Of a DNA stretch of 64,000 bases, positions 47,361 to 63,703 are shown piece by piece (position 1 is the stretch's first letter; each line of letters starts with the position of its first letter). A program made the position numbers and the translations under genes. The DNA is from Sinohyriopsis cumingii (taxonomy: Eukaryota > Mollusca > Bivalvia > Unionida > Unionidae), in contig JAPYKE020000037.1 of NCBI GenBank assembly GCA_028554795.2, positions 6,880,501 through 6,944,500 of the forward strand, written 5' to 3'. A model generated the notes under the pieces. That model was not told where the DNA came from. It saw only the letters and a list, made by a program, of their open reading frames with translations, and made no database searches.

Positions 47361-49387
<2,027 letters not shown>

Positions 49388-49558
49388 GGGGATACTATAC
49401 GTACAATGGGAATTAGCATTACAGACCCCCCTGGGTCAATATAAGTACAATGGGAATTTAACATGGCGAAAAATCTTGGGTCAATATACGTACAAGGGGA
49501 ATTTAACATGGCGAAAAATCTTGGGTCAATATACGTACAAGGGGAATTTAACATGGGA
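49388..49558 (+). repeat. 45-base tandem repeat at the Polinton left end
   Basis: Units start at about 49,388 (diverged), 49,433, 49,478 and 49,523, each carrying GTCAATATACGTACAAGGGG and AATTTAACATGGCGAAAAA. The last two full units are identical. Terminal or subterminal tandem repeats occur in some Polinton inverted repeats. The minus-strand frame across it is a repeat translation. Confidence 0.85.
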
Positions 49559-49611
49559 TTTTTTTCTTTTAACAAAAAAAATTAAAAAAAGGGGTAGGCA
49601 ATGCAAAGGCT

Positions 49612-49652
49612 ATCTCTTTTCGAGAAATATGGCTGGCCCTGAAAAGGGCCTT
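49612..49652 (-). terminator. Histone-type 3' stem-loop plus purine-rich downstream element
   Basis: The minus strand reads CCCAAAGGCCCTTTTCAG, then GGCCAGCCA: a six-base GGCCCT/AGGGCC stem with the TTTC loop, an upstream CAAA flank and an AGCCA tail (histone consensus ACCCA). Fifteen or so bases downstream is TTTCTCGAAAAGAGATA (49,612-49,628), a purine-rich block like the histone downstream element that pairs with U7 snRNA. In histone genes this pair directs cleavage without polyadenylation. Confidence 0.75.
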
Positions 49653-49674
49653 TGGGTTTATGTTAATGTATTCA

Positions 49675-49908
49675 TTAACATAAATGGCACCGCATTGGTC
49701 TTCTTCTTGTTCTTAGGCTGCGTCTCACTGTTGGTCCGTAAATTAGCACTCTTTTCAGGCATCCTTGTCTTTCGACGTAGATCCTACGTATCCACAGACT
49801 GGTGTTTGTCCTGTGGACAACGGTCCACTTGGATCGGACATACATGAGCATGTCCGTCCTGAACATCATCGTTGACACAAGCGTTGAAGAGTGCACATCG
49901 GTCCACAT
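49675..49908 (-). CDS. Polinton terminal gene, small Arg-rich protein with histone-type mRNA end
   Basis: The 77-residue frame is Arg-rich toward the C-terminus (RRSLRTRRRPMR). I recognise no family, and it is not a histone. It is supported as a gene by its surroundings: TATAAATAAG about 45-50 bases upstream (49,951-49,960, minus strand), CCAAT motifs in a shared divergent promoter, and a textbook histone-type stem-loop starting 23 bases after the stop. A small overlapping frame (PEKSANLRTNSETQPKNKKK) lies in the same transcript, so the coding frame is not certain. Confidence 0.5.
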   Translation of the reverse strand: MWTDVHSSTLVSTMMFRTDMLMYVRSKWTVVHRTNTSLWIRRIYVERQGCLKRVLIYGPTVRRSLRTRRRPMRCHLC

Positions 49909-50127
49909 GTTGAGACGCCGAGAACAGGTGAATCAATGCAGTGAACTGCGCTTATTTATAGGTAGAGGAAGGATTGAAACGGATTGAGTTCATTCACCAA
50001 TCCAAACACGCGTTACAAAATTCAGTCAGCTCGCATCCAATCCGAAGAGAGCAGTCTGTGACGTCAGTTGGTCTATATAGATTCGCTAGCGCTTGTGTGC
50101 AGTCAATCTATACGACAGTGATTCAAC
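49909..50127. promoter_or_regulatory. Divergent promoter shared by the two terminal Polinton genes
   Basis: Between the two start codons lie GGATTG at 49,971 and 49,981 (CCAATCC on the minus strand), CCAATCC at 49,998 and 50,037, a CRE palindrome TGACGTCA at 50,058-50,065, TATATAG at 50,072 for the rightward gene and TATAAATAAG (minus, 49,951-49,960) for the leftward one. Repeated CCAAT boxes with TATA boxes between divergent genes recall paired replication-dependent histone genes. Confidence 0.65.
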
Positions 50128-50703
50128 ATGACGGAAATTCAGAAAACGATCCATTGGGGTGCACCAACAGGGGAGACTGCCCAAGGGAACCCGGACTTAC
50201 TTTCAGAAGAGGTGAATTGGGATTTTGTGGATTTTCTCTCCTCGCAAGAATTTGTTCCAGAACCTTCGTTACCTTCTTCATTACCGCAAGTGGAAAATTT
50301 TAGACAGAGACAGAAAGAAGAATTGGAGAAATTTATACAACGACAAAAGGAAGCGGAACAAGCTTTTCTCCTACAGCAACAGCAGCAAGAAGAAGAGGTA
50401 AGAAAAAAACAACAGCAACAACAGCAAGAAGAAGTAGCAGCAAAGAAACAAGAGGGTGAAAATCAAACGGTCACGGTACTGTTGGACATTTTAGCGGAGT
50501 TAAGAAGTCTGAAACAAATGTATCAGACTTCTTTATTACGACCGAAGAGAATACGACCTTCCCGAGCTAAACACGCCAACCCTGTGACTAAGCCTACCGT
50601 ACCACCCTTAGTGATTTCAACCCAATCATCATCAACATTACGTAGTCCAGAAGTAGGCCTTGGCCGTGGCAAAGGCTTAAGGCAGTTAAAGTTGATTGCT
50701 TAA
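50128..50703 (+). CDS. Polinton terminal ORF, Gln/Glu-rich coiled-coil protein
   Basis: 191 residues. The start fits a TATA box 56 bases upstream. The N-terminal 55 residues are mixed. Residues about 56-115 are Gln/Glu/Lys-rich (RQRQKEELEKFIQRQKEAEQ and poly-Gln) and likely coiled coil. A second helical stretch, LLDILAELRSLKQMYQ, is the best conserved part against the fossil at 19.9 kb. The tail is basic, ending RGKGLRQLKLIA, also conserved. No enzymatic motif; perhaps a structural or DNA/RNA-associated protein. The stop is followed after 25 bases by a histone-type stem-loop. It faces the zinc-knuckle gene in convergent orientation. Confidence 0.75.
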   Translation: MTEIQKTIHWGAPTGETAQGNPDLLSEEVNWDFVDFLSSQEFVPEPSLPSSLPQVENFRQRQKEELEKFIQRQKEAEQAFLLQQQQQEEEVRKKQQQQQQEEVAAKKQEGENQTVTVLLDILAELRSLKQMYQTSLLRPKRIRPSRAKHANPVTKPTVPPLVISTQSSSTLRSPEVGLGRGKGLRQLKLIA

Positions 50704-50727
50704 ACTCACCCCTACACCGAAATAAAA

Positions 50728-50769
50728 AAGGTCCTTTTCAGGGCCACTCACATTTCTCGAAAAGAAATA
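50728..50769 (+). terminator. Histone-type 3' stem-loop plus purine-rich downstream element
   Basis: AAGGTCCTTTTCAGGGCC with tail ACTCA (histone consensus tail ACCCA): six-base stem GGTCCT/AGGGCC including one G-T pair, and loop TTTC. It is followed at 50,752-50,769 by TTTCTCGAAAAGAAATA, almost the same block as after the 49.6-kb stem-loop. A conventional AATAAA occurs later, at 50,801-50,806, so both kinds of 3' end may be possible. Confidence 0.8.
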
Positions 50770-50998
50770 CAATTTCAATTTGCCAATAACTCAAAAAAAT
50801 AATAAACCAACCCATTTTACCCTTATAGTACGTGTCTGTGTATGAGTGCGTGAGTGTAGCTTCTTATTTTAAAATCAAAACTCAAAGACACTTACCTTAT
50901 ATCATTAATTTATTCTTTTATCCATTGTTACAATCCAATTCACAATTCACAACAGAACACTTTAATATAAAGTTCATACACTTCTTCTTTCTCCTTGT

Positions 50999-51491
50999 TT
51001 AGTCTCTCTGTTTTTTGAATTTCTTTACCGTTTTTTCCTCATTTTCTTCCCTTCTTCTTTTCTTCTCCTGTTTCTTCGCCTCTTGTAAATAGAATTGTCT
51101 TCTTTCTTCCTCTTCTTCCTCTGAAGAATCCCTCTCTTCTTCCGAAGAATCCCTCTCTTCTTCTGAAGAATTCCTCTCTTCTTCTGAAGAATTCCTCTTT
51201 TCTTCTGACTCCTCTTGTTTCTTTTTTGGGCAATCTGGAGACCAATGTCCTTTTTCTTTACAATAATAACAGGTATCTTGACTTTTGTCTTTTTTAGCCC
51301 CTGTTTTTTTTTCTTTTTTGACGGTCTGGACACTCTGAAGACCAATGCCCTTTCTTCTGACAGATATAGCAAGTATCTTGACTTTTATCTCGAAAGGAAG
51401 GAGAGTAGTCCGTGGGCTGGTCTGAAGAGAATTTTCTAATGACCCCTCGCAAAGCTCTGACGAAACGTTCGATTTGGTTAGTCTCTTCCAT
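50999..51491 (-). pseudogene. Polinton convergent CCHC zinc-knuckle gene
   Basis: The natural start is probably the ATG at 51,491 (MEETNQIERFVRALRG), about 55 bases from a minus-strand TATAAAAGGG. Two CCHC knuckles are visible, CYICQKKGHWSSEC and CYYCKEKGHWSPDC, each preceded by DKSQDT. They are followed by four or five tandem acidic units (SSEEERDSSEEER type) and a Lys/Arg-rich tail. CCHC knuckles bind single-stranded nucleic acid. The gene appears broken (about one break). A matching remnant in the same convergent place exists in the 14-20 kb fossil, so it is a regular part of this Polinton family. Confidence 0.65.
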
Positions 51492-51540
51492 CGTTGTGCT
51501 CGGCTTGAGAGTGAAATGAATAGTGAAACGACAAGACACA

Positions 51541-51580
51541 CACCCTTTTATATACGCTGGTCTGCTATGACTATAAATTA
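51541..51580. promoter_or_regulatory. Back-to-back TATA boxes
   Basis: CACCCTTTTATA (51,541-51,552) is TATAAAAGGGTG on the minus strand, about 55 bases above the zinc-knuckle gene's ATG. CTATAAATTAG (51,571-51,581) is 54 bases above the plus-strand ATG at 51,626. Confidence 0.65.
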
Positions 51581-51625
51581 GTCTATGGTGTTTAAACTTG
51601 AGTCATTTGACGTTTTGCACTCAAG

Positions 51626-52477
51626 ATGAAACGATCCCATTCATTCGAGAAGAAAGAAGAAGAACGTAAGAGGCAGAAACGTGATCTATCGCCTCGTACC
51701 AGGGCTGAAATTTTGGCACAAATTCATGCCAGTGATTTTGAAGAGGACATGAGTGAACCAGAATCCAAACCATCTAAACCAAGTTCACCACCCTTAGTCA
51801 ACCCTGAAAAATACTATTCCATTCGAGAGACGGAAAAGCGCTCCTCTAGAAAATTTAGAACCACGGCTTACAAATACACAGTGAAGTTTAAAGATTTCAA
51901 GGCTGAAGTGCCGTTAGAGAAAGCAGAAGTGCTTATCACTGGGGTGTGGGATTCTTTGCTCACCGCACTCAAGCGACAATGTCAACCCAAAGAAGACGAT
52001 CGCTTGAGACTTTCCATACAACACGACGGTTTGAAATCCACTGTTTGGATCGAGTTTAGCACCCCTGCAGAATTGACCGCTTCCAAAGTCATGGAAAAGA
52101 TTCAACACGTGCACCAATCTAATGACCAGTTTGACATCACCGATGGAAAAGCCACATTGGACATGACCCACGTCTCTCCTCCTCAAGGGACCGGACGCAA
52201 AAAGATGTTATTGGTGAACGAGCTTCGCAGCATTAAGCGTAGCCTTGTCCAAATTCACAATCCTCATGACCAGATGTGTTTAGCCCGTGCCATCGTGGTG
52301 GGACGAACCTATGCCAACAACAACGACACGGTAGAATGGAAAAGAACCTGGAACACTATTCAACGTTCCTATCGAGCAAACAACGAAACGAAGCAGAACT
52401 CCTGTTGCAACAAGCTGGCCTGTCCAAAGACACACCCTGTGGCATTCCTGAGATGCAAAAATTGCAAGATGCCCTAG
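51626..52477 (+). CDS. Polinton pre-polymerase ORF, function unknown
   Basis: 283 residues. The first 60 are charged and Ser/Pro-rich (KKEEERKRQKRDLSPRTRAE). The middle (YKYTVKFKDFKAEVPLEKAE to GKATLDMTHVSP, about 75-190) looks like a folded domain, and the same segment survives in the fossil at 18.3-18.6 kb. It ends with a cysteine-containing stretch. The frame overlaps the beginning of the polymerase region by about 200 bases, so it may be the N-terminal domain or a partner of the polymerase or terminal protein. I do not recognise the fold. Confidence 0.6.
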   Translation: MKRSHSFEKKEEERKRQKRDLSPRTRAEILAQIHASDFEEDMSEPESKPSKPSSPPLVNPEKYYSIRETEKRSSRKFRTTAYKYTVKFKDFKAEVPLEKAEVLITGVWDSLLTALKRQCQPKEDDRLRLSIQHDGLKSTVWIEFSTPAELTASKVMEKIQHVHQSNDQFDITDGKATLDMTHVSPPQGTGRKKMLLVNELRSIKRSLVQIHNPHDQMCLARAIVVGRTYANNNDTVEWKRTWNTIQRSYRANNETKQNSCCNKLACPKTHPVAFLRCKNCKMP

Positions 52478-55400
52478 CTCCACGATACACCTTGAAAGTG
52501 CACCCTCGAGGGCAAGATTTTAAGGACGGAAAATACATTCATGTTTATTATCACGATGACCATTTCGATACCATTACCAGTATCACCGGATTCCTGGGAT
52601 ACGGTTATTACTGTGAGAAATGTGACCATGGTTATAATAATCGAGAGCAACACAAGCATTCTGGATTGAAATGCTCAGGATGTTTGGCCTCTTCACCCTG
52701 TCTGAGCGAAGAACCAGTGCCTTGTTCCACTTGTCTGCGCACGTTTGTCAGCCCTACCTGTTACCAACAACATCTGAAGACGCAAGGTTCACAGAAGAAA
52801 TGTGCTTGTCAACTGCTGAGATTGTGCCCTACGTGTGGACAAGTCATACGTACCAATAATACCAAGGCACACGTATGTTCAGGAAAGAAAAAATGTCACA
52901 TTTGTCACCACATCGTGGACTTGGAACACGAATGTTACGTGCAAAAATACCAACCCCCACCAGAGAAAGAGGACGGTCACAAGAAGAAAGGCAATTTCAT
53001 CTTTTTCGATTTCGAATGCATGCAAGAGACCGGCATTCACATTCCTAATTTCTGCGTGGCTCATCGAGCGTGCGAGAAGTGCATTCAAGAACCTATCTTC
53101 AGTCATTGCCCTCACTGCAGCAAGATTCCTGGAGGGCGTGAAAAAATCTTTCGGGGACCGAACACGTTAGCCGATTTTGCCCAATGGGTCTTAGACCCCG
53201 TCGACAAGACATGGAGCCAAGAGGATATCGAACGTTACCGAGATTGTCATCGTCATGCCACGGTGATGGCTCACACTTTCTCCGGATACGATGGACAGTT
53301 TCTTTTGAGGTACTATACGGAACAAGGTACCGAACGTCCTAAAGTGACTTTGAACGGAGCCAAAATCATTTTCATGCAAGTGGGACAAGTGCAGTTTAAA
53401 GATTCGATGAGCTATTTGGCCATGCCTTTGAGTCGAATGCCTAAAACGTTTGGAATGACAGAAATGGCTAAAGGGTACTTTCCACACTTTTTCAATACGG
53501 AAGCCAATCAACACGCCGTTCTACCCCATTTACCTGAGGCTCACTATTACGACCCCGACAACATGCGTACCGAACAACGAGAAGCTTTCTACGCTTGCTA
53601 CCAGGCGCACGCCTCGGACCCTTTCGACTTTCAGGAAGAAATGCTAAAGTATTGTCGTTCCGACGTGGACATTTTACGGCGTTGCTGTGGAAAATTTCGA
53701 GAACTGTTCATGGAACACGGAGGGGTCGATCCTTTGAAAGAAGCTTGCACCATTGCCAAAGCGTGTTCCTTAGTGTATCGACAACGATTCATGCCTGAAA
53801 ACACCGTGGCTGTCATCAGTCCTCAAACGACCCACTATGTCAAACGTCAATACTCGGTCAAAGCCCTACGTTGGTTACATTACTTGTGCGACAAGGAAGA
53901 CAAGTGGATTCAGCATGCCCGCAACCGAGGGGGCGAAAAGACCATCGGAACGTATTCGGTGGATGGCTGGGACTTAGAAAACCCCAAGATCGTGTACGAG
54001 TTTAACGGTTGCTTATTTCACGGATGTCCCGTCTGTTACCCTGACCGTGGCACTAAAAATCAGTTTTTGCAACGAACCATGGAAGACTTGTACCAGGACA
54101 CTTGTCAGCGACGCCTAAAGTTAGAACAGCAAGGATACCAAGTGGTGGAAATGTGGGAACACGAGTACGATCACCGTATGAAAACCGATCCCGAGTTTAA
54201 ACGCCTCGTGGAAAGTTACCAGTTCATGGACCCGTTGAACCCGAGGGATAGTTTGTACGGAGGAAGGACCAATGCCACCTGTTTGCTGTACCAAGCCGAC
54301 GAAGAGAAAGGAGAAGAAATCAAATACTTGGACGTGTGTTCGCTGTATCCCTACGTGTGCAAATAGTGTCGCTTTCCTGTAGGGCACCCGCAATTGCTGA
54401 CGGAACACATCGACCTGAAAAACATTCGACAATACGAAGGCTTGATCAAGTGTAAAGTTTTGCCTCCCACGAACCTATACCATCCCGTCTTACCTCACCA
54501 TTGTCAAGGCAAACTGATGTTTCCCTTGTGCCGTACTTGTGCCGAAACGTGCAAACAAGACCAACCTTGTCAGCATACCCAGGAAGAACGTGCCTTGACG
54601 GGAACCTGGGTCAGCGTAGAATTGTTCAAAGCTCTGGACATGGGATACCAACTGTTAGATGTGTACGAAATTTGCCACTTTCCCAAGACACAACAATACC
54701 ACAAGGGTGATCCCAGTCAGAAAGGCATTTTCGCCGACTACGTGGATGCCTTTTTGAAACTGAAACAAGAAGCCAGCGGCTATCCTTCCTGGTGTCACAC
54801 TCCCGAAGACCAAATACAATTCAAAGAGAAATACTACGAACAAGAAGGCATCTCTTTAGACCACATCTAGAAAAACGAAGGCAGGCGATCGTTTGCCAAA
54901 GTGATGTTAAATTGCTTGTGGGGTAAAATGGCACAACGCCCGTGTTTACCCAAGACGGAATATTTGACAGAACCTTCCCGCTACTTCCAGATGATTCACG
55001 ACAAAACCAGTTTGATCTTGGTCAATTACGAAGAAGATCTGGACTTTGTACAAGACGACCCTTTTGGAAATGTCATCATTGCGGCTTACGTGACAGCCCA
55101 TGCTTGCTTAAAATTGTACGAAGCTTTAGAACTGTTAGAAGAACGCGTCCTGTACTTTGACACGGACAGTTGCATTTACATCCATCACCCGATTCAACAT
55201 CACCCTAATATCGAAGGAGACCGTTTAGGAGCCTGGACAGACGAGCATCCCGACGACAAGATTCAAAGTTTCGTCAGTGGCGGTCCCAAAAATTACGGCT
55301 ACGAATACCGGGACAAACAAGGAGAAGTGCACACGACGTGCAAAGTGAAAGGACTGACTCTGAATTATCGTACCAGTTGAGTGGTCAACTTTGGGGTATT

Positions 55401-55626
55401 GAAAGAAGCATTACAATCGGGAGAGGATGGACACTTTAAAGTGACCACTCACCAACCGAACAAGATTGTACGTTTACCCACTCACCACATCGTCAGTCGG
55501 CCCTTGAAAAAAGTCTATCAAATCGTGTACCAGAAGCGAGTGCGACTTCCCAATCATTTCACCTTACCGTATGGACACGTCGGTATTGGACTGTATATAA
55601 AAAGGAACCCTAGGCAAGATCGATAG
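52276..55626 (+). pseudogene. Polinton protein-primed family B DNA polymerase
   Basis: The region begins with a Cys-rich part holding several C-x2-C pairs (CEKCDHGY, CSTCLRTF, CPTCGQVI, CHICHHIV). The 3'-5' exonuclease follows: FFDFECMQ (Exo I), FSGYDGQFLLRY (Exo II) and YCRSDVDIL (Exo III). The palm has LDVCSLYPYV (motif A), NCLWGK (motif B) and YFDTDSCIY (motif C). This is the replicative enzyme of Polintons, primed by a terminal protein at the inverted repeats. The region is broken, with about three breaks. The intact family length is around 1,100 residues, which the region matches. Confidence 0.9.
55594..55601 (+). promoter_or_regulatory. TATA box for the BIR gene
   Basis: GTATATAAAAAGGAACCC, 65 bases above the ATG at 55,659 and inside the last polymerase codons. 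It suggests independent transcription of the BIR gene. Confidence 0.55.
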
Positions 55627-55658
55627 TTCATTGGGACTACCAAGACCGAACGAACAAG

Positions 55659-56297
55659 ATGAATACTTTCAGAGAAACACAGAACAAGTTGTTTAGAAAG
55701 GCACAATTCAAGTGTGAGGCTTCGGAAGTGGAATGCGATTGTGAGCCTTGCGATGGGTACGATGCTGTACGCTGTGACCTTAGCGATGCCGTAAAGCATC
55801 ATGGGAACTTTAGTGTCCCTACCCCTATCATGGAAAGGGATGCTGTGGGTGTCAAACCTGAGGGATGCGAAAGTGATGCCGCTCGTCCTCTTGGACATTT
55901 TACTGAGTTTGGTTTTAAAGGGGAATGTTCACCTTCACGTCTACCCCGCTACGGATGTCATCCAGCCCTGAGCAAACTCCTGCCCATGTCACTCAACCCT
56001 CATCGAAACGAACCTGTGAAAGACGAATATTCGTTCCCTGTGCGTTTGTCGGAATACTGCGACTTTGAAAATCGTCTTCAATCGTTCAAAGGAAAATGGC
56101 CTAAGTATCTGGGAGGACCGACCCCCGAAGAATTAGCCAGAGCCGAATTTTTCTACTTGGGCGAAGGAGATAAAGTCAAGTGCTTCAGTTGCGGTGTGTC
56201 ACTTCACCACTGGGAACCGCAAGATTCGGCCTACGTTGAACATGCTCGATGGTCACCGAATTGTCATTACTTACCCTTAGTGGGACCGAGACATTGA
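55659..56297 (+). CDS. BIR-domain protein (inhibitor-of-apoptosis-like) carried by the Polinton
   Basis: 212 residues. The C-terminal 70 form a single BIR domain: RLQSFKGKWP, then ARAEFFYLGEGDKVKCFSCG, HHWEPQDSAYVEHARWSPNC. The zinc ligands C-x2-C-x16-H-x6-C are all present. The N-terminal 130 residues are Cys-rich at first (CDCEPCDGYD) and then unrecognised; no RING finger follows the BIR. Known BIR proteins bind caspases or IAP antagonists, and BIR genes are known from large DNA viruses, adintoviruses and some Polintons. A role in blocking host cell death is inferred. TATA box 65 bases upstream. Confidence 0.85.
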   Translation: MNTFRETQNKLFRKAQFKCEASEVECDCEPCDGYDAVRCDLSDAVKHHGNFSVPTPIMERDAVGVKPEGCESDAARPLGHFTEFGFKGECSPSRLPRYGCHPALSKLLPMSLNPHRNEPVKDEYSFPVRLSEYCDFENRLQSFKGKWPKYLGGPTPEELARAEFFYLGEGDKVKCFSCGVSLHHWEPQDSAYVEHARWSPNCHYLPLVGPRH

Positions 56298-56322
56298 AGT
56301 AACTTCTTACCATAATCTGTTC

Positions 56323-56778
56323 ATGGATACTTTACAAGAGAACATTTTTGCTTTGCCTGTGGAGTTGAGAGAACGCATTTACCGAGAGCTGGTCAAAATA
56401 CAAGTGAAACGTAAAGAACAATTGCATCCCTTACGTCACCGGTGTTTGAACCACTGGTACCTGAAGGCTATACAAGGATTGATTCAATTGAAAGTGTTCC
56501 ATCGGACAGACATTGATGAACGATCCTCTAGTTTTAAAAAGGATTGGTTTGGTATGGACGATTCTACCTACATCATTGTAAACCTACTGCATCGAATTCC
56601 AGAGGAAGAGTTAACGAATTACCAACATCTTGAACACAATGTCAACTTAGTGAAAGAGGAAACTTCTGAACGAATTGTAATGTGCAAATTAGTAACTAAA
56701 GGATTTAAATTCGACACTGAAGTAAAACCATGTTTGTGCAAACAGTACATTTCTTGTGTCACACCAAAGAGGATTTAG
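56323..56778 (+). CDS. Polinton F-box-like ORF, copy 1 of 3
   Basis: 151 residues starting MDTLQENIFALPVELRERIYRE. The LPVELRERIYRELVKIQ stretch fits the core pattern of F-box motifs (LP.ELR..IY..L). The remainder (RHRCLNHWYLKAIQGLI, HRIPEEELTNYQHLEH) is shared with copy 3. Only 25 bases separate it from the BIR stop, and no TATA box is evident, so it may be translated from the BIR mRNA or by reinitiation. If it is an F-box, it would connect host targets to SCF ubiquitin ligase; that is inference from a short motif. Confidence 0.6.
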   Translation: MDTLQENIFALPVELRERIYRELVKIQVKRKEQLHPLRHRCLNHWYLKAIQGLIQLKVFHRTDIDERSSSFKKDWFGMDDSTYIIVNLLHRIPEEELTNYQHLEHNVNLVKEETSERIVMCKLVTKGFKFDTEVKPCLCKQYISCVTPKRI

Positions 56779-56790
56779 TATGACCTATTC

Positions 56791-57063
56791 ATGGATACTT
56801 TGCTAGAGAACATTCGTGCTTTGCCTGTGGAGTTGAGAGAACGCATTTACCGAGAACTGATCAAAATACAAGTGAAACGCAAACTCAAAGTGATTCATCC
56901 GTTTTTAAATTATGCTATGTTCCAAAGTACAAGAAGACTGATTATGAGTGGATATTACATCAGGCACAAAGTTAAACGAGGCTATTGGCCACCACCCAAC
57001 GATTCCAAAAACAGTGTATATACTTATGGATACTTTACAAGAGAACATTTTGGGCTTGCCTGA
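56791..57063 (+). CDS. Polinton F-box-like ORF, copy 2 of 3
   Basis: 90 residues with the same start, ENIRALPVELRERIYREL and KIQVKRK, followed by a segment (VIHPFLNYAMFQSTRRLI) related in place but not closely in sequence to the neighbours. Its end overlaps the start of copy 3 in another frame. Part of a tandem family. Confidence 0.5.
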   Translation: MDTLLENIRALPVELRERIYRELIKIQVKRKLKVIHPFLNYAMFQSTRRLIMSGYYIRHKVKRGYWPPPNDSKNSVYTYGYFTREHFGLA

Positions 57064-57523
57064 GGAGTTGAGAGAAAGGATTTACCGAGAGCTGGTGAAA
57101 ATACAAGTGAAACGTAAAGAACAATTGCATCAGTTACGTCACCAGATCTTTAACCACTGGTACCTGAATGGTATAAGAGGACTGATTCGTCAGAAATTTT
57201 TTCAGTGGTCAGACCTTGTTGAACACTTTCAGTTTGGGGATGATGATGGACCAGACGTTCGTAATTTTGGTTACTTAGAGATTCACTTACTACAACGTAT
57301 TGAGGAAGACGAGTTAAAGGATTACCAACATTTGTTACATGGAATCTGCTTAGAGAAAGACGAAACATCTAGACAAACTCTGACGTTTCAGTTACAGTAT
57401 GTAACATTTAAATTCCCTACTGGAGAACGAACATGTTTGGTTAGAAATTACCTTTATTGCTTCCGAAACAAAGACACTATAAAATCAAGTTGCCATGCCA
57501 CGGATTATGTCACATATCATTGA
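57026..57523 (+). CDS. Polinton F-box-like ORF, copy 3 of 3
   Basis: 165 residues from the ATG at 57,026 (MDTLQENILGLPEELRERI), chosen because it aligns with the starts of copies 1 and 2; the open frame upstream of it is a shadow. QLRHQIFNHWYLNGIRGLI and LLQRIEEDELKDYQHLLH match copy 1, showing a tandem duplication with divergence. Confidence 0.6.
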   Translation: MDTLQENILGLPEELRERIYRELVKIQVKRKEQLHQLRHQIFNHWYLNGIRGLIRQKFFQWSDLVEHFQFGDDDGPDVRNFGYLEIHLLQRIEEDELKDYQHLLHGICLEKDETSRQTLTFQLQYVTFKFPTGERTCLVRNYLYCFRNKDTIKSSCHATDYVTYH

Positions 57524-57719
57524 ACAGATTCCGTGGAAGGTACTCAATGACCATATTCAAACCGTGGATCATTACCATCAGTTATTACAAGAACTGTATC
57601 CATTCAATTTGGGACGACAAGTGGTGTGTGTCTTAGTGACTTGTTTTCTGGGATTTCGTTTACCAGCCGATTCTTTGTGGACTCTTTACGATCAGTACTT
57701 ACCACCTCAATGGCCTTAA
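57495..57719 (+). CDS. Polinton small ORF, function unknown
   Basis: 74 residues (IIEQIPWKVLNDHIQTVDHY, VLVTCFLGFRLPADSLWTLY). It overlaps the end of F-box-like copy 3 and the start of the next ORF in different frames. No family recognised. The dense overlap suggests compressed coding of a virus-like kind. Confidence 0.4.
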   Translation: MPRIMSHIIEQIPWKVLNDHIQTVDHYHQLLQELYPFNLGRQVVCVLVTCFLGFRLPADSLWTLYDQYLPPQWP

Positions 57720-58033
57720 ATGGTCACGAAAAACTCCTTTTGCTCAAAGCCTTGCGTTTTCATCTGGATACTTCTCGACCTCAACCGGAAAAAAAGATTC
57801 GTCAACTTTTAGCTACCCAAGATGTGTATGACGATGTGTGTGTAGCTTGTGACTTACATCCCCATTGGACAGATGTCCGTGCCTGGAAAGAATGGGGTTT
57901 TGAGGCTTGGACCCAAGAAGTGGCCCAGTATGTACGAGAGTTGTTCAAGGAAAAAAGTTACTTTTCAACCCGTGTTAGTGACGGTGCCAAAAGAACCCGT
58001 CACCCAGGACAGGACTGTCGTGGACAGACCTGA
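57710..58033 (+). CDS. Polinton small ORF, function unknown
   Basis: 107 residues from the ATG at 57,710 (MALNGHEKLLLLKALRFHLD), which sits inside the stop region of the previous ORF. It contains VCVACDLHPHWTDVRAWKEW and ends in a basic, polar tail. No domain recognised. Another frame (57,849-58,217) overlaps its second half. Confidence 0.4.
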   Translation: MALNGHEKLLLLKALRFHLDTSRPQPEKKIRQLLATQDVYDDVCVACDLHPHWTDVRAWKEWGFEAWTQEVAQYVRELFKEKSYFSTRVSDGAKRTRHPGQDCRGQT

Positions 58034-58217
58034 AAGACCCTTTCGGGAGGACACTTGTGTGACCTTACCCCCTACTAAAGAACTGGTTAGAACATTACCC
58101 AAAACATATTGTACAGACACTTGTTTTTATTCCACGTTAATGGTTATCATGTGCCTTTTATCCTTGTACTTAAGCCTTTGGCTTTTATGTATTTTTGTCT
58201 TTCGTATTCATGTTTGA
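57849..58217 (+). CDS. Polinton ORF with C-terminal membrane segment
   Basis: Open frame of 122 codons whose last 30 residues are strongly hydrophobic (STLMVIMCLLSLYLSLWLLC), compatible with a tail-anchored membrane protein. The true start is unclear because the first half overlaps another frame. AATAAA follows at 58,230-58,235. Confidence 0.4.
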   Translation: MTYIPIGQMSVPGKNGVLRLGPKKWPSMYESCSRKKVTFQPVLVTVPKEPVTQDRTVVDRPERPFREDTCVTLPPTKELVRTLPKTYCTDTCFYSTLMVIMCLLSLYLSLWLLCIFVFRIHV

Positions 58218-58229
58218 AAAAAAACATTC

Positions 58230-58260
58230 AATAAACGTGTTCTGAAAAAGTATATAAACT
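58230..58260 (+). promoter_or_regulatory. Poly(A) signal and TATA box between Polinton genes
   Basis: AATAAA at 58,230-58,235 can end the upstream transcripts. GTATATAAACTC at 58,250-58,261 is 54 bases above the ATPase ATG. The short handover supports separate transcription units. Confidence 0.6.
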
Positions 58261-58304
58261 CTTGTCTTGTTTGTTTTCGTGTCACAAGTGACATTTCTCA
58301 CACA

Positions 58305-59033
58305 ATGGCTACCTCTGCTGTCTCTGCTCCCTCTTCCTCTACTGTCAAAGTCATCGACGAACACTTAGATCGTGCCAGTTGGGAGGCTTTGTATCTTCGC
58401 CATCCCTTTAACATGCTCATTGCTGGACCTAGCGGTTCTGGCAAAACCGAATTCGTCAAACGTTTGATCGAACATAAACATCATTTGATCGATCGGCCAC
58501 CTCAACGGATCGTGTGGTGTTACAAAGAGTGGCAATCGGCGTACAGCCTCTTGCGAGAAAGTCAAGGCGATTCCATCGTGTTTGTGGAAGGCATTCCTAA
58601 AGAAGACGACAGCATCGTCTCTGACTCCCGTCAAACCCATTTGGTCATTTTCGACGACATGTTAGGAGAAGACGAAGAAGAAATTAAACTGTGGTTCACG
58701 CGCAAAGGGCATCACCGTAATGTCAGTGTCGTTTACATCACCCAAAATTTGTTTCAACAAAGTAAAGCCCATCGCACCATCAGTCTCAATGCGCATTACG
58801 TGGTCTTGTTTAAAAGCCCACGAGATAAATCGCAAGTGCAAGTCTTAGCCAAACAGTTAGGAACGCCTTGGCTGACTCAGGCGTACGACGATGCCACTCA
58901 AACGCCACACGCCTATTTACTCGTCGATTTGAAACCTACGACTCCCGAGGATTTGCGATTTCGTACCCACTTGTTTCACCACTGGTGCCAAGACGGAGGG
59001 CCTGTCCTGTACACGTCTCCGATCTCGACTTAA
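58305..59033 (+). CDS. Polinton genome-packaging ATPase (FtsK/HerA type)
   Basis: 242 residues. Walker A is IAGPSGSGKTEF at about residue 44, and Walker B is HLVIFDDMLGE near 110. VSVVYITQNLFQ downstream is the usual sensor/arginine-region strand of the adenovirus-IVa2/poxvirus-A32-like packaging ATPases. Length and motif spacing fit Polinton ATPases, which pump DNA into the capsid. The start is chosen by the TATA box 54 bases upstream. Open throughout. Confidence 0.9.
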   Translation: MATSAVSAPSSSTVKVIDEHLDRASWEALYLRHPFNMLIAGPSGSGKTEFVKRLIEHKHHLIDRPPQRIVWCYKEWQSAYSLLRESQGDSIVFVEGIPKEDDSIVSDSRQTHLVIFDDMLGEDEEEIKLWFTRKGHHRNVSVVYITQNLFQQSKAHRTISLNAHYVVLFKSPRDKSQVQVLAKQLGTPWLTQAYDDATQTPHAYLLVDLKPTTPEDLRFRTHLFHHWCQDGGPVLYTSPIST

Positions 59034-59055
59034 TTTCACTCCACATAAAAAAATC

Positions 59056-59062
59056 TATAAAA
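59056..59062 (+). promoter_or_regulatory. TATA box
   Basis: TATAAAAACCTCAG, 46 bases above the ATG at 59,102. Confidence 0.55.
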
Positions 59063-59101
59063 ACCTCAGACCCTTTTTCGTCTGTCTCACACAGTGTGAA
59101 C

Positions 59102-60019
59102 ATGACGTCCCTTCAGTCGCATCTTCCCGTCAAATTGATTCGTGCCTTGTATGGCATCAGTCGAGAAAAAAATCCACAAACACGAGCTCGTGTCTTAGAA
59201 GCTAGTCTCAAACAAGTCTTACGATGGTTCACGGTGACGGAACGTCAAATACTCCAAGGAATCATTCAGATTCCTCATCAAACCAAACGCTTTTTCGATC
59301 GAAACAAAGTCGCTTTGGTCCAACTGGCCGATCCCCGCATCGACACTCAAACCAAAAAACAAATCATTTTGAAACCTGGAGGGAGCGGTACTCTAGGAGG
59401 GGTCATCATTCGCTCTCTCTTAAGATGGGATCCTAATGCCCCCAAAGTTATACCCAAGAAAAAAGTCCAACGAAGCTCCAAGAAGAAGAAGAAAAAGACC
59501 AGGTCCCCAAGGAGAACTTCTCCAGTGGCAGGACCCTCCTCTGACCAGACACCACCACCCCGGAAAAAGAAAAGAAGCCCCCAGAAAAAGAAACAGAAAA
59601 AAAGTCCCCAGAAAAAGAAAAGTCCACAGAAGAAAACTAGTCGCAAGAGAGGCACTTCGGCCAGGACGCAACCTTACACTCGCCAACCACGACCTGCCAC
59701 AGCGGTGACTGCGTCTCCGACAGCCTCACGTTTATCCACTTCTCCGTTAATGACACCAAGAACTGAAGAGTACTTGGAGACGTTGATCACACCAAGAACT
59801 TCTCCGTTGATGACCCCCAAAAGAACTTCCCCAGTGGCAGGACCCTCCAATTTAGCGGCAGTGGCTGCTGCTCACAAAGTACCTTCTCCCAAAATCAAAG
59901 TCCATGAAAGATCGGGCATGTTACAAAGTTTACTGGATTTGTCCAAGCAAGAACTGGCTCGATTTAGTCCGTTACGTACCCCTGCACGACGTGTCATGCC
60001 TGTCCTCAAACTGATATGA
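59102..60019 (+). CDS. Polinton basic protein, probably virion/core DNA-binding
   Basis: 305 residues from the ATG at 59,102 (MTSLQSHLPVKLIRALYGIS), chosen for its TATA box; the longer open frame upstream is the shadow of the ATPase gene. Residues 1-115 look folded (LKQVLRWFTVTERQILQGII). About 120-190 is extremely Lys/Arg/Ser/Pro-rich (KKKKKKTRSPRRTSPVAGPS, with KKKSPQKK repeats). The C-terminal half contains repeated TPRTSPLMTP/TSPVAGPS units and a short helix, LQSLLDLSKQELARFSP. It resembles adenovirus-like core proteins in composition only. Inferred to condense or package DNA. Confidence 0.6.
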   Translation: MTSLQSHLPVKLIRALYGISREKNPQTRARVLEASLKQVLRWFTVTERQILQGIIQIPHQTKRFFDRNKVALVQLADPRIDTQTKKQIILKPGGSGTLGGVIIRSLLRWDPNAPKVIPKKKVQRSSKKKKKKTRSPRRTSPVAGPSSDQTPPPRKKKRSPQKKKQKKSPQKKKSPQKKTSRKRGTSARTQPYTRQPRPATAVTASPTASRLSTSPLMTPRTEEYLETLITPRTSPLMTPKRTSPVAGPSNLAAVAAAHKVPSPKIKVHERSGMLQSLLDLSKQELARFSPLRTPARRVMPVLKLI

Positions 60020-60050
60020 CGTAAAGACAATCAGTGGCGACGCGTTCCAG

Positions 60051-60058
60051 TATAAAAA
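60051..60058 (+). promoter_or_regulatory. TATA box
   Basis: GTATAAAAAAGGCCTG, 64 bases above the ATG at 60,115. Confidence 0.55.
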
Positions 60059-60114
60059 AGGCCTGTGACCAAGTAGGGTATCAGTGTTTTTTTGGTGCTC
60101 CTGAAGACTCAAAG

Positions 60115-60501
60115 ATGTCACCCTCCAGAAAACCCCAAGGAAAGAAAAGGAAAGGACTGCCACCACGTTTAGCCAAACATGGGGACATGTTATCTGTCCT
60201 GTCCAAAGCTTCTCCACCCCTACGAAAAAAACTCATTCAATCGGCCTCCAAAGAGGTCATCGATACCGTGTGCGAATGTTGTTTGAACGTTTCGAAAGGC
60301 ACGATCCCTTTGTCCAAACATCAGAAACAATGCTTAGGCAAACATAGTCACGTTCTTCGGAAAATGTTTCAAAAGAAAATTCCCATTCGTCAAAAAAAGA
60401 AGATGTTAGTGCAACGTGGAGGCATTTTACCTCTCTTGTTAGGCCCCATACTGAAAGGAGTCTTGGGAACCATGTTGGGAGGACTGGTGGGAGCAAGATA
60501 A
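60115..60501 (+). CDS. Polinton conserved basic protein with hydrophobic RGG-ILP tail
   Basis: 128 residues from the ATG at 60,115, chosen over an upstream in-frame Met because of the TATA box at 60,051. The start is basic (SPSRKPQGKKRKGLPPRLAK). The middle has VIDTVCECCLNVSKGTIPLS. The end, KKKMLVQRGGILPLLLGPIL followed by a Gly/Leu-rich helix, is a pattern I know from many Polinton and adintovirus proteins, reminiscent of adenovirus minor core peptides. Function unproven. Confidence 0.65.
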   Translation: MSPSRKPQGKKRKGLPPRLAKHGDMLSVLSKASPPLRKKLIQSASKEVIDTVCECCLNVSKGTIPLSKHQKQCLGKHSHVLRKMFQKKIPIRQKKKMLVQRGGILPLLLGPILKGVLGTMLGGLVGAR

Positions 60502-60506
60502 AAAGG
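60498..60506 (+). promoter_or_regulatory. TATA-like box
   Basis: GATAAAAAGGCCTTC, 52 bases above the ATG at 60,550 and overlapping the stop codon of the preceding gene. Similar to the TATAAAAAAGGCC at 60,051. Confidence 0.45.
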
Positions 60507-60549
60507 CCTTCGGAAGTCCCAAGATCTCAGAATCGACCGCTGACAACCC

Positions 60550-61227
60550 ATGGAAGGACGAAAACTAGCTTTAGTGCCTTACAAACGCAGCCCGCATTTA
60601 CCTCCCAATCCCAATTTGAGCGAGATGTCCCAGTTACAACACGAATTGCAGTCCTTGATGGATCGCCAAGATTTGTCCGAAACAGAAAAATCGCAAAAGT
60701 ACGGTCAACTCTTGCAACGACTGCAACTCTTTCACCAGAAAGCTTTAGACGAAACAGCTTTACCCACTCTGAAAGATTTTAAGACCTTGATGAAAAGTCC
60801 AGCACCATCATCATTACCACCACCACTACTACCATCCCCTGGGGTCACCAGAGATGCTACCCCACGAAGGCCTGAGGAAGAAGAGATGCGAGAAGTGTTT
60901 CAAACACCGTCAGCAGCTCCCATTTCGAGTAAGATTTCAGCATCCTTGTTGACCCCGTCCCCCACACCCCAACGAGAAGAAATGAAAGCTTGGGTTAAAA
61001 AGATGATGTCCACTCCTCCTTCGACAGAAGTGAATAAGAAAGAAGGGAAACCAGAAGTGAAAAAAGAAAAGAAAACCAAAGCCATTCCATTGCCACCTCC
61101 ACCACCACCACCACCACCACTACCTTCGACTTCTACTCCCGTAGCCCATCGGACACGTAAATCCGTTTCCAAACCACCCTTTCGACCCACCCAAAGTAGC
61201 ATCACCGAAGAGTGGGTGACTTATTAA
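60550..61227 (+). CDS. Polinton Pro-rich protein, function unknown
   Basis: 225 residues. The N-terminal half is helical and polar (LQHELQSLMDRQDLSETEKS, QLLQRLQLFHQKALDE). The second half is rich in Pro/Ser/Thr with a run of about nine prolines near residue 187 and basic patches (KKEKKTKAIPLP). No domain recognised. The poly-proline may bind SH3 or WW proteins, or be a virion-tegument-like linker; both are guesses. The integrase starts only 30 bases downstream. Confidence 0.55.
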   Translation: MEGRKLALVPYKRSPHLPPNPNLSEMSQLQHELQSLMDRQDLSETEKSQKYGQLLQRLQLFHQKALDETALPTLKDFKTLMKSPAPSSLPPPLLPSPGVTRDATPRRPEEEEMREVFQTPSAAPISSKISASLLTPSPTPQREEMKAWVKKMMSTPPSTEVNKKEGKPEVKKEKKTKAIPLPPPPPPPPPLPSTSTPVAHRTRKSVSKPPFRPTQSSITEEWVTY

Positions 61228-61242
61228 CACACCAACCAACAC

Positions 61243-61258
61243 AAAAAAAAAAAAAAAA
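61243..61258 (+). promoter_or_regulatory. Poly(A) leader abutting the integrase start codon
   Basis: Sixteen A residues, the last being the A of the ATG at 61,258. No TATA box lies between the preceding stop and this start. An A-rich leader could help ribosome loading or reinitiation, or could simply be a homopolymer. Confidence 0.4.
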
Positions 61259-62367
61259 TGGAAAAAGTCTTAGCCAGCATTTACTACGATCCTTCGCATC
61301 CTGCAGGTTCCGCAGGAGTTCAAAAATTGTATCGTGCTGCCAAAACTCGACTGAAAAGTCTCCGTTTACCTCAAGTGCAACGATGGTTACAAGAACAAGC
61401 TACCTACACTTTACACAAACCCATTCGACGCAAGTTTGCTAGAAGTCGCACCCGAGTGGAAGGCATCGATCATCAATGGCAAGCCGATTTAGCCGATGTC
61501 TCTCATTTGGCCAGCTACAATCGTGGCTACAAATATTTGTTTTGTGTCATCGACGTCTTTTCCAAATTTGCCTGGGTCGTGCCCTTGACTTCCAAATCGA
61601 GCAGCGAGTTAGTGCGAGCCCTGCAACGGGTGTTGAAACAAAGCGGTCGTCACCCTCTTCGATGGCAAACGGACAAAGGCACCGAATTTCTGAACCAAGC
61701 TTTCCAAAAAGAATTAAAGAAACGTGACATTCATTTTTTTACCACCGAGAATCCCGAAACCAAAGCCAGCATCGTGGAACGTTTTCAACGCACTTTGAAA
61801 GAACGCATGTGGAAATATTTTACGCATCACCACACTCTGAAGTACATCGACATCTTACCGCACCTGGTGCAAGCGTACAACCAATCTTACCATCGAAGCA
61901 TCGGACGTGCCTCGCAAGACGTGACTCCCGAGAACGAAGTGCTGGTGTTTGAGCGTCTGTTCGGTATGTCCCCGACGAGGGCTGTCCCCAAGAAAAGTGG
62001 AATGTTGGCCGTAGGAGATTGGGTGCGCATTGGCAAAACCAAACGCACTTTTGACAAAGGTTACTTACCTAACTGGACGACCGAACTGTTTCGCGTCACT
62101 GGACGAGTGCATGGCCGTCATCCTGCCGTCTATAAATTGGAAGACATGAACGGAGAAGTGCTCAAAGGAACGTTTTATTTGCCCGAGTTACAACGTGTCA
62201 CCAAAAAAGAAGACGACGTGTACGACATCGAAAGCATTCTCGAACGCAGAACCCGTAAAGTGGGCAAACGATGTGTCAAAGAAGTCAAAGTACGTTGGAA
62301 AGGATATCCACCCAGTTTTGATTCTTGGATCGACGCTTCGCAAGTCATCGACTATAAAAAGAAGTGA
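61258..62367 (+). CDS. Polinton integrase (DDE, retroviral type) with C-terminal chromodomain
   Basis: 369 residues. The N-terminal region is helical (QKLYRAAKTRLKSLRLPQVQ), lacking an obvious HHCC zinc finger in the usual spacing. The catalytic core has QWQADLADVSHLA (first Asp), RWQTDKGTEFLNQAF (second Asp) and KASIVERFQRTLKERMW (Glu), spaced as D,D-35-E. The C-terminal 50 residues form a chromodomain: DVYDIESILERRTRKVGK, VKVRWKGYPPSFDSWID. The enzyme joins the element's ends to host DNA and makes 6-bp duplications in this family; the chromodomain may steer insertion to methylated-histone chromatin. Open throughout. Confidence 0.93.
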   Translation: MEKVLASIYYDPSHPAGSAGVQKLYRAAKTRLKSLRLPQVQRWLQEQATYTLHKPIRRKFARSRTRVEGIDHQWQADLADVSHLASYNRGYKYLFCVIDVFSKFAWVVPLTSKSSSELVRALQRVLKQSGRHPLRWQTDKGTEFLNQAFQKELKKRDIHFFTTENPETKASIVERFQRTLKERMWKYFTHHHTLKYIDILPHLVQAYNQSYHRSIGRASQDVTPENEVLVFERLFGMSPTRAVPKKSGMLAVGDWVRIGKTKRTFDKGYLPNWTTELFRVTGRVHGRHPAVYKLEDMNGEVLKGTFYLPELQRVTKKEDDVYDIESILERRTRKVGKRCVKEVKVRWKGYPPSFDSWIDASQVIDYKKK

Positions 62368-62372
62368 CCATC

Positions 62373-62780
62373 ATGCCCTTTCACACATCAGACGCAGCTA
62401 CGTCGACCACTCCTTCTTCACCTAGTTCTTCTGTGCAAGATTTACAAAAACAACCCTTGTGGGTGTGGTGTGGAAAACGTGTGCCTAAAACGCAAATCGT
62501 CTTTTTCTGCCAAATCTTCGTGGTGTATTGTGTCATCGGGGCAGCCATCGCCAATTTGAGTTTGCAACAAGGAGACAAACAATTGTGGACCATTTTATTG
62601 AGCAGTTGCATCGGTTACCTGCTTCCCAATCCCTCCCTGAAATTCTCCTCGAACGGGAACCTTGTGTCCAGTGCCAGTGCCAGTCACCACTCCAACCACA
62701 ATCAGAACCCCATTTTGGGCGGAGACACGCCTCTGACGTCCAGTAACCCCTCGGACAGCCACAGAACTCTAGAATTATGA
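62373..62780 (+). CDS. Polinton two-TM membrane protein
   Basis: 135 residues from the ATG at 62,373 (MPFHTSDAAT); the few codons open upstream use GTG and overlap the integrase stop. The middle carries IVFFCQIFVVYCVIGAAIAN and LWTILLSSCIGYLLPNPSL, two membrane helices in a pattern that recurs in Polintons and adintoviruses. The tail is polar, Ser/Asn-rich. TATAAAAAG lies at 62,352 inside the integrase end. Its stop codon overlaps the next start (ATGA), so the two may be translated together. Confidence 0.65.
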   Translation: MPFHTSDAATSTTPSSPSSSVQDLQKQPLWVWCGKRVPKTQIVFFCQIFVVYCVIGAAIANLSLQQGDKQLWTILLSSCIGYLLPNPSLKFSSNGNLVSSASASHHSNHNQNPILGGDTPLTSSNPSDSHRTLEL

Positions 62781-63700
62781 GAAACCAAAACCAATTTTAC
62801 TTAACTTTACCCAGTGACAGTTCCATGCAGGTGTTTCCCAACAACACGTTGTGCTGTTACACGGCCAAATTACCTCAGGCTATCCCCTTAGATCACGAAG
62901 CCCATTGGGAAGTGGCTTTAGTAGAAATGATTCACCCGACCCAAGTCCTCAATGTCCTTCCCAATCAAAATTTTTTTCATGTGGAAGTTCATGACGAGCA
63001 ATTGCAACAGGAGTTGGATAGGAGAGTCAACTATGACAATAAAACTCGTACACAAAATTCCACCACCTATCACTTGTTCATTCCCCCAGGCTATTATTTT
63101 AGTGGTCAACATTTGGTCAACACCATAGCTGCCAGGTTTAATGGCGTGTTTGGGAAAGCTTTGGAGCATGTCAACAAAAGTGTCACCATGGAGTACCACA
63201 AAGTAGCTCGTCGCTTCTCGATGAAATTTGAGCGGAGTAAAATCATGTCCATTTTATTTTGTCCTGAATTGTTTGACATGTTGGGCGGAGACATGAACAT
63301 GAGAATGACCATAATGAACAACAGCGAATTACCCATCGTTTACGACAACGAGTCTTTTAGCAAGTTATTTCGTACCCCGGTAGAACTGAACCAAGGACTG
63401 AATTTGATGTTCGTGTATTCCGATGTGGTAGAGTACAACGTAGTGGGACACACATCCGTGCCGTTACTGCGTGTCATTCCTTTCAAAGTGGATTCTGCCG
63501 CGAACGCTGACGAGGAAGGTGGAAACACTTACCACGTCCACCGCGAATTTGTCCATCCTCACTATTTGCCGGTCAGCAAGTCGTATTTGGACACGGTCAA
63601 CATTACTATAAAAGGAGATTTGGGACAAAATATTCCATTCACCAAAGGAAAAGTCACGGTGAAACTCCATTTTCGAAAACGGTTCTCTCACGACTCGTAA
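62777..63700 (+). CDS. Polinton penton-like minor capsid protein
   Basis: 307 residues. The opening, NQFYLTLPSDSSMQVFPNN, followed by AHWEVALVEMIHPTQVLNVL, is the signature of a protein found in very many invertebrate Polinton/adintovirus relatives and regarded as the single-jelly-roll vertex (penton) protein. Length fits. The C-terminal part (ITIKGDLGQNIPFTKGKVTV) is beta-rich. The start overlaps the preceding stop by ATGA. The assignment rests on remembered similarity, not on a structure comparison. Confidence 0.7.
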   Translation: MRNQNQFYLTLPSDSSMQVFPNNTLCCYTAKLPQAIPLDHEAHWEVALVEMIHPTQVLNVLPNQNFFHVEVHDEQLQQELDRRVNYDNKTRTQNSTTYHLFIPPGYYFSGQHLVNTIAARFNGVFGKALEHVNKSVTMEYHKVARRFSMKFERSKIMSILFCPELFDMLGGDMNMRMTIMNNSELPIVYDNESFSKLFRTPVELNQGLNLMFVYSDVVEYNVVGHTSVPLLRVIPFKVDSAANADEEGGNTYHVHREFVHPHYLPVSKSYLDTVNITIKGDLGQNIPFTKGKVTVKLHFRKRFSHDS

Positions 63701-63703
63701 GTC

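Follow-up and report, generated by a model that had tools for sequence, protein, structure and literature searches.

The window, the whole stretch of 64,000 nucleotides analysed here, contains most of an element that starts at position 49378 and that is, as judged from its termini and gene content, a Polinton (an endogenous adintovirus-like element). The Polinton is 19,806 bp long, lies on contig C37 of a 2.9-Gb genome and ends 5,183 bases past the window, in the adjoining stretch L064. Its terminal inverted repeats (TIRs) start with AG, which is a feature of the Polinton family, and the 6-bp target-site duplication TATATT stands on both sides. The left TIR between 49382 and 49655 is 93% identical to L064:5179-4908 over 275 columns, and the outermost 23 nt are identical at the two ends. 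The left TIR holds 45-bp tandem repeats, and at its inner edge lie the histone-type 3' signals of an outward-transcribed gene for a 77-aa protein (Table 1).

Table 1 Features of the Polinton within the window, in window numbering
Feature	Position	Strand	Remarks
Target-site duplication TATATT (6 bp), left copy	49372..49377	.	Right copy at L064:5184-5189 (69184-69189 if the window numbering is continued)
Left TIR, first letters AGTAGTGAAGG	49378..49655	.	
Purine block (candidate histone downstream element) of the 77-aa gene, TCTCGAAAAGAGATA	49611..49625	-	9 nt past the hairpin
Histone-type 3' stem-loop of the 77-aa gene, GGCCCTTTTCAGGGCC (GGCCCT-TTTC-AGGGCC)	49635..49650	-	RF00032, 35.6 bits
77-aa accessory gene, outward transcription, arginine-rich C terminus	49675..49908	-	No Pfam match
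Divergent promoter region	49909..50127	.	Motif matches only: a TATA-like site per direction, two CCAAT, one TGACGTCA
191-aa accessory gene	50128..50703	+	No Pfam match
Histone-type 3' stem-loop of the 191-aa gene, GGTCCTTTTCAGGGCC (GGTCCT-TTTC-AGGGCC)	50730..50745	+	RF00032, 32.3 bits; this copy has one G-U pair
Purine block of the 191-aa gene, TCTCGAAAAGAAATA	50755..50769	+	9 nt past the hairpin
Family B DNA polymerase ORF	52336..54366	+	PF03175, 72.6 bits; no RF00032 match near
Packaging-type ATPase, Pox_A32-like	58305..59033	+	PF04665, 35.3 bits; no RF00032 match near
Retroviral-type integrase with chromodomain	61258..62367	+	PF00665 and PF00385; no RF00032 match near

Pfam identifies three genes by which a Polinton is recognised, namely those for the family B DNA polymerase, the retroviral-type integrase and the packaging ATPase, and a BIR domain is also encoded in the element. 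In this copy, two more ORFs come after the polymerase ORF (52336-54366). A 186-aa ORF matches PF00770, the adenovirus-type protease, with 17.6 bits, which is below the cut-off of 21.3 bits, and a 425-aa ORF without a Pfam match occupies the expected place of the major capsid protein. Histone-type 3' signals are absent from the core replication and capsid genes.

The left end of the Polinton carries two divergent accessory genes. The original prediction held that each of them ends in a six-base stem with a TTTC loop, and both hairpins are present as RF00032 matches. The hairpin of the 77-aa gene (the minus hairpin) is matched at 49655-49610 with 35.6 bits (E 3.1e-8 for 1.7 kb searched), and that of the 191-aa gene (the plus hairpin) at 50725-50769 with 32.3 bits (E 5.5e-7, likewise for 1.7 kb), each over all 46 positions. 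The gathering score of RF00032 is 34 bits; the plus hairpin lies 1.7 bits under it, and the minus hairpin is the sole Rfam match at gathering score in the whole 64-kb window. Copies in which the plus hairpin lacks the C-to-T change score up to 42.9 bits. The hairpins stand 24 nt (77-aa gene) and 26 nt (191-aa gene) from the stop codons, so that the 23 and 25 bases given at first were off by one. The nearly identical purine block said to follow each hairpin is found 9 nt downstream of both.

Neither protein had been thought to be a histone, and neither the 77-aa nor the 191-aa product has a Pfam match. An alignment of 46 copies, comprising the window and 45 other loci of the same genome, indicates that both genes encode proteins; 16 of the 46 copies were chosen via RF00032 and 30 were not, namely the window and 29 copies found by DNA similarity. 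The median pairwise dN/dS ratio over the 46 aligned copies is 0.14 for the 77-aa ORF (704 pairs; 2.0 in a shifted-frame control) and 0.50 for the 191-aa ORF (539 pairs; 0.8 in the control). The 77-aa ORF is interrupted by an in-frame stop in 2 of 46 copies and the 191-aa ORF in 4 of 46, compared with 46 of 46 in each control frame. Thus, both left-end genes are under purifying selection, which is only moderate (dN/dS 0.5) for the 191-aa gene. A 34-aa ORF that overlaps the 77-aa ORF in another frame and ends 7 nt ahead of the hairpin was rejected because the constraint lies on the 77-aa frame. The public protein collection contains two relatives of the 77-aa product (P0141 and P0142, 75-77% identity) and 20 of the 191-aa product, of which one is 97% identical, 15 are 59-68% identical with 96-100% coverage and four are shorter pieces. 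The predicted model of the 191-aa protein consists of one long helix (residues 53-136), the remainder being without predicted structure, and is of low confidence (pLDDT 68.1, pTM 0.25); that of the 77-aa protein is poor (pLDDT 54.6).

The observation is larger than first noted, because the element has five such hairpins and not two. At the right end, just outside the window, three genes in tandem encode 92, 80 and 144 aa, and each has a same-strand RF00032 match behind it, with scores of 29.3, 31.6 and 28.8 bits, respectively, all under the gathering score, and with stop-to-hairpin distances of 28, 96 and 66 nt. Hence, histone-type hairpins follow all five terminal accessory genes of the element (28.8-35.6 bits, one of the five above the gathering score of 34), and element copies elsewhere in the genome reach 45.6 bits. 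No Pfam histone match is found for any of the five products, indicating that these are not histone genes but are only built like them. No further RF00032 match occurs in 50780-64000 up to E 1, and L064 contains only the three up to E 0.1. In the right-end hairpins, the outer pair is A-T in place of G-C, so that both sides have changed. Loci with two same-strand hairpins were considered as a second subfamily, which was rejected as the right-end sequence shows them to be right termini.

The hairpins could in principle act as DNA, as inverted-repeat sites near the termini for replication, packaging or integration, and two of the five do lie at the inner edge of a TIR. However, the TIR does not include the other three, which are found on the coding strand 26-96 nt past a stop. 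Furthermore, the block 9-10 nt downstream matches that of host histone genes, which a function at the DNA level would not require, and this explanation is very improbable.

The decisive test of the histone-type reading is the comparison with the host's own histone genes. A search for the histone family, in which 150 of 662 candidates were scored, places these genes in tandem arrays whose repeat unit often measures about 8.3 kb. The 3' ends of an H3 gene and an H2B gene from contig C561 were read, the two genes being identified by their C-terminal codons. The H3 hairpin is GGCCCTTTTTAGGGCC (RF00032, 35.9 bits) and the H2B hairpin is GGCCCTTTTCAGGGCC (38.2 bits); in both genes, 9 nt follow the hairpin and then comes the block TCTAGAAAAGA. 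The block of the element is thus placed as in histone genes, as had been claimed, and the histone-type reading is supported because host H3 and H2B share the kind of hairpin, the block and the 9-nt spacing. A set of 135 distinct hairpins at element loci, defined by at most three mismatches to GGCCCTTTTCAGGGCC with the downstream sequence left free, was compared with TCTAGAAAAGA. The block is exact in 24, and it has one mismatch in 86, two in 20, three in 3 and four in 2. It stands within two mismatches in 130 of the 135, at an offset of 9 nt in 124, 10 nt in 5 and 8 nt in 1, and shuffled downstream stretches come within two mismatches in 0.5%. Part of these loci were chosen by RF00032, whose 46 positions reach into the block, and the DNA-similarity copies were not so chosen.

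The signals are highly conserved among the copies in the genome. The minus hairpin has no variable column among its 16, either in the 46 aligned copies or in the 30 that were not chosen by RF00032. Beside it, 123 of 234 columns of the adjacent ORF and 28 of 30 columns of the TIR spacer are variable in the 46 copies, and 14 of 30 spacer columns in the set of 30. Such invariance within variable surroundings is not due to chance. The plus hairpin has 6 of 16 variable columns in the 46 copies and 3 of 16 in the 30 copies, and some copies break a pair. Among the 29 DNA-similarity copies (L032-L060), the minus hairpin is letter-perfect in all 29, and the plus hairpin reads GGCCCTTTTCAGGGCC in 26, with one mismatch in two copies and two mismatches in one. 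A scan with Rfam of 16 of those 29 copies finds both left-end hairpins in all 16, giving 33 matches, the extra one being a third site in L033. Nine of 21 hairpin types keep all six pairs, and types with one or two broken pairs make up 16 of 129 contexts. The expectation that related elements carry the stem-loop is therefore borne out within this genome (29 of 29 copies). Three remote contigs (L061-L063) that were found by their ATPase in a collection of genome contigs have no RF00032 match, although none of them matches the terminal genes.

These patterns bear on whether the signals are a relic of histone-gene 3' ends that the element once captured and that persist without function. In favour of a relic, the likeness to host H2B spans 36 nt from the hairpin through the block at 88.9% identity. 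A functionless relic is nevertheless most improbable, because none of the 46 copies has a change in the minus hairpin although 28 of 30 columns of the spacer beside it are variable, because the outer pair of the right-end hairpins is altered on both sides, and because hairpin, spacing and block are all kept at five separate genes. The signals may have been captured from a host histone gene.

The same signals are abundant throughout the genome. RF00032 gave 589,472 first candidates, and the capped list of scored matches comprises 75; the host histone hairpins, although they score 35.9 and 38.2 bits, are not among these. All 56 of the 75 matches whose surroundings were fetched are Polinton termini, and none of the 56 loci has a tblastn match to H2A, H2B, H3 or H4. 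In practical terms, the best RF00032 matches in this genome are Polinton ends (56 of 56 fetched), so that such a match is no proof of a histone gene. A pattern made of the hairpin core, 10 free places and TCTNGAAAAG has 44,630 exact sites genome-wide (22,090 + 22,540) and none in the reversed control. Most of the 100 sites listed show linkers of the element, and many form opposite-strand pairs with a spacing of about 1.1 kb, which is the arrangement of the left end. Host histone genes can add to the 44,630 sites but do not explain the count, and we infer that the element is present in about ten thousand copies. With 44,630 exact sites in the genome, the element RNAs might mainly serve as decoys that titrate host SLBP or U7 rather than as mRNAs. 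This is hardly probable, since purifying selection on both left-end ORFs implies that both are translated, at least where a copy is active.

The likeness to host histone genes includes a promoter element. The stretch upstream of host H2B (L101) contains GATGTTTTCCATCACGTCCGCGCT, and blastn finds this 24-nt element ahead of each of the three right-end genes, at L064:2797 (24 nt, 96%, E 1.3e-6), L064:3680 (24 nt, 92%, E 3.2e-4) and L064:4355 (23 nt, 96%, E 5.3e-6). The third gene has a second, closer copy at L064:4424 with four mismatches. The copies nearest to the genes have TATAA 5 nt further on, except that the first right-end gene has TTTAAG there; in host H2B, TATAAATA comes 28 nt past the promoter element. 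Several other Polinton copies equal the H2B version letter for letter, and the pattern GATGTTTTCNNTCACGTCCGCGC occurs 31,228 times genome-wide, with no occurrence of the control. Other stretches of L101 give no match to the element ends at E 0.05; because only the promoter element matches, the host stretch cannot be explained simply as Polinton sequence inserted there. The left divergent promoter does not contain the 24-nt H2B element. Its two CCAAT boxes recur in the host H3 promoter, which is weak evidence of likeness.

The distribution of poly(A) signals bears on how exclusively the hairpins are used. In the 191-aa gene, AATAAA occurs 17 nt past the stop, just ahead of the hairpin, and again at 97 nt, so that its transcript could end in a poly(A) tail; this speaks against the hairpin as the sole end signal of this gene. 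The right-end 92-aa gene has ATTAAA at 210 and 328 nt past its stop. Such sites would allow dual-mode ends, in which the hairpin sets the transcript end in S phase and a nearby AATAAA sets it otherwise, and expression would then not be strictly limited to S phase. However, neither AATAAA nor ATTAAA occurs within 400 nt of the stops of the 77-aa, 80-aa and 144-aa genes, and we regard dual-mode ends as possible but doubtful. They would be compatible with histone-type processing of the terminal genes, yet they would weaken its gating step. AATAAA is found within 400 nt in three of 17 core ORF ends (at 112 nt in the protease gene), and a minus-strand ORF at 51.5-51.0 kb has one at 84 nt. Fourteen of the 17 core ends have neither AATAAA nor ATTAAA, and hence a contrast between terminal and core genes in poly(A) signals is not general.

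Searches for the host U7 snRNA, by RF00066 and by a pattern, did not find it. RF00066 has no match in the host, and none in control sequences either. The pattern CTCTTTT...AATTTNTCTAG occurs at 26 places against 36 in the reversed control, and eight of the 26 that were read contain no convincing U7 3' stem-loop. Pairing of the purine block with the 5' end of human U7 is no better than that of shuffles, 15-25% of which pair equally well.

At the sequence level, histone-type 3' ends are strongly supported, as all five terminal genes of the element and nearly all copies examined carry the same hairpin and spacing and nearly the same block as two host histone genes. The original reading of these sites is thereby supported at this level, with the same signals at three further genes. 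We therefore consider it likely, with a probability of roughly 85%, that the terminal genes of the Polinton give rise to histone-type mRNAs that are processed by way of SLBP and U7 and have no poly(A) tail. By analogy with the known histone pathway, we infer the processing itself, the use of SLBP and U7, the absence of a poly(A) tail and the S-phase gating. The terminal accessory genes, two divergent ones on the left and three tandem ones on the right, would be built like host replication-dependent histone genes, each ending in a histone 3' stem-loop that a linker of 9-10 nt separates from a near-copy of the host histone downstream element. Host RNA polymerase II would transcribe them, SLBP would bind the hairpin of the transcript, and the U7 snRNP would pair with the purine block. 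The U7-dependent cleavage complex would then cut just past the hairpin to yield poly(A)-less mRNAs, which would be stable and translated mainly when SLBP is abundant, i.e. in S phase. With the H2B promoter element on the right-end genes, both the start and the end of transcription may track the histone programme.

A broader interpretation, to which we lean with less assurance, is that a DNA element has taken over the host histone programme for genes that are not histone genes, with 3' ends on five genes and the H2B promoter element on three. This would produce an S-phase-gated, poly(A)-independent early or regulatory set of genes apart from the core genes, and an element with about ten thousand copies may draw heavily on SLBP and U7, whether as a client or as a sponge. 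If histone-type processing of the terminal genes holds true, the Polinton would sense host DNA replication through RNA processing, and its genes would split into two classes by the type of 3' end. The tens of thousands of natural variants of the hairpin and the downstream element would also serve studies of SLBP and U7 recognition.

Traces of the signals may extend beyond this genome. The related proteins P0132 and P0142 overrun their usual stop and seem to translate the signals, with WPISGPPTSLEKRYY in P0132 and KPFSGPLTLLENIYY in P0142. By hand back-translation from the protein, these extensions seem to fit the hairpin and the block in frame, with small differences. The packaging ATPase has 670 protein relatives (120 listed), and an ATPase with 64% identity is labelled as belonging to a Candidatus Thiodiazotropha taylori MAG. 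We take this bacterium to be a symbiont of lucinid clams, so that the contig may be animal DNA. Scans of a collection of viral contigs found no relatives of the element. We know of no natural non-histone gene family, viral or mobile, with histone 3'-end processing. The open-licence literature, which leaves most subscription journals outside, yielded no case of a Polinton or other viral genome with a histone stem-loop or downstream element. The main text of a paper on vertebrate Mavericks (PMC8097293) makes no mention of histone, stem-loop, polyadenyl- or transcri-, and that of PMC11071308 makes no mention of histone.

The element shares with Polintons/Mavericks and adintoviruses the family B polymerase, the A32-type ATPase, the rve integrase with chromodomain, the TIR and the 6-bp duplication. 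It further has a match to the adenovirus-type protease below the cut-off and, at the expected place of the capsid gene, an ORF of 425 aa without a Pfam match. It differs from them in that its terminal genes carry histone-type 3' ends. A viral link to histone biology is also seen in adomaviruses, which carry a histone-like gene named Histoid (PMC11071296). There, it is the protein that resembles a histone, whereas in the Polinton only the transcription and mRNA-end signals do so. Among molluscs, a report on Lucina pectinata (PMC6210712) describes histone mRNAs with the stem-loop and, in part, purine-rich elements. Compared with metazoan replication-dependent histone genes in general, the hairpin, linker length and downstream block of the element are those of host H3 and H2B. 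In contrast, the encoded proteins are not histones, the genes are part of a mobile element, and the hairpins of the 80-aa and 144-aa genes stand as far as 96 and 66 nt past the stop.

A second common stretch lies 3' of the purine block in all five terminal genes of the Polinton (TTTCAATTTGCCAA / TTTCAATTGCC / GCATTGCC / CCATTTGCCAA), and host H2B carries TTTCAACTTTG at the corresponding place after its own purine block. The H2B promoter element is a 24-nt stretch common to the host H2B upstream region and the right-end genes of the Polinton. Four copies of it lie in the right end, two of them ahead of the last gene. The pattern of this element has 31,228 occurrences genome-wide.

Both ends of the Polinton have 45-bp tandem repeats, which lie within its TIR. 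At each of three other loci of the same genome (L013, L016 and L033), the termini of more than one copy are located near each other, and this suggests nested or neighbouring insertions. To the left of the insertion lies a GPCR-like gene, and an ORF to its right is similar, by eye only, to the end of this gene.

Within the Polinton there are a BIR-domain gene of the inhibitor-of-apoptosis type and a tandem pair of related genes encoding 151 and 165 aa, the first 199 nt of which show 84% identity. A partial third copy of this gene sequence is also present.

L063, a remote contig found by its ATPase, belongs to a Bathymodiolus-symbiont MAG and contains a weak twister-P1 ribozyme match (28.9 bits against a gathering threshold of 67.2), with Polinton-like genes on the same contig.

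Positions of the features in window numbering, in the sequence directly right of the window (L064) or in L063
Feature	Position	Remark
GPCR-like gene	31296-32492	7tm_1, Srw (Pfam)
TIR repeats	49388-49566	
Second common stretch	50770-50790 and downstream of other purine blocks	beyond purine block
BIR-domain gene	55659-56297	PF00653, 78.5 bits (Pfam)
Tandem gene pair	56323-57224	
Partial third copy	56775-56883	109 nt
H2B promoter element	L064:2797, 3680, 4355, 4424	
ORF	L064:9160-9441	
Twister-P1 match	L063:15841-15905
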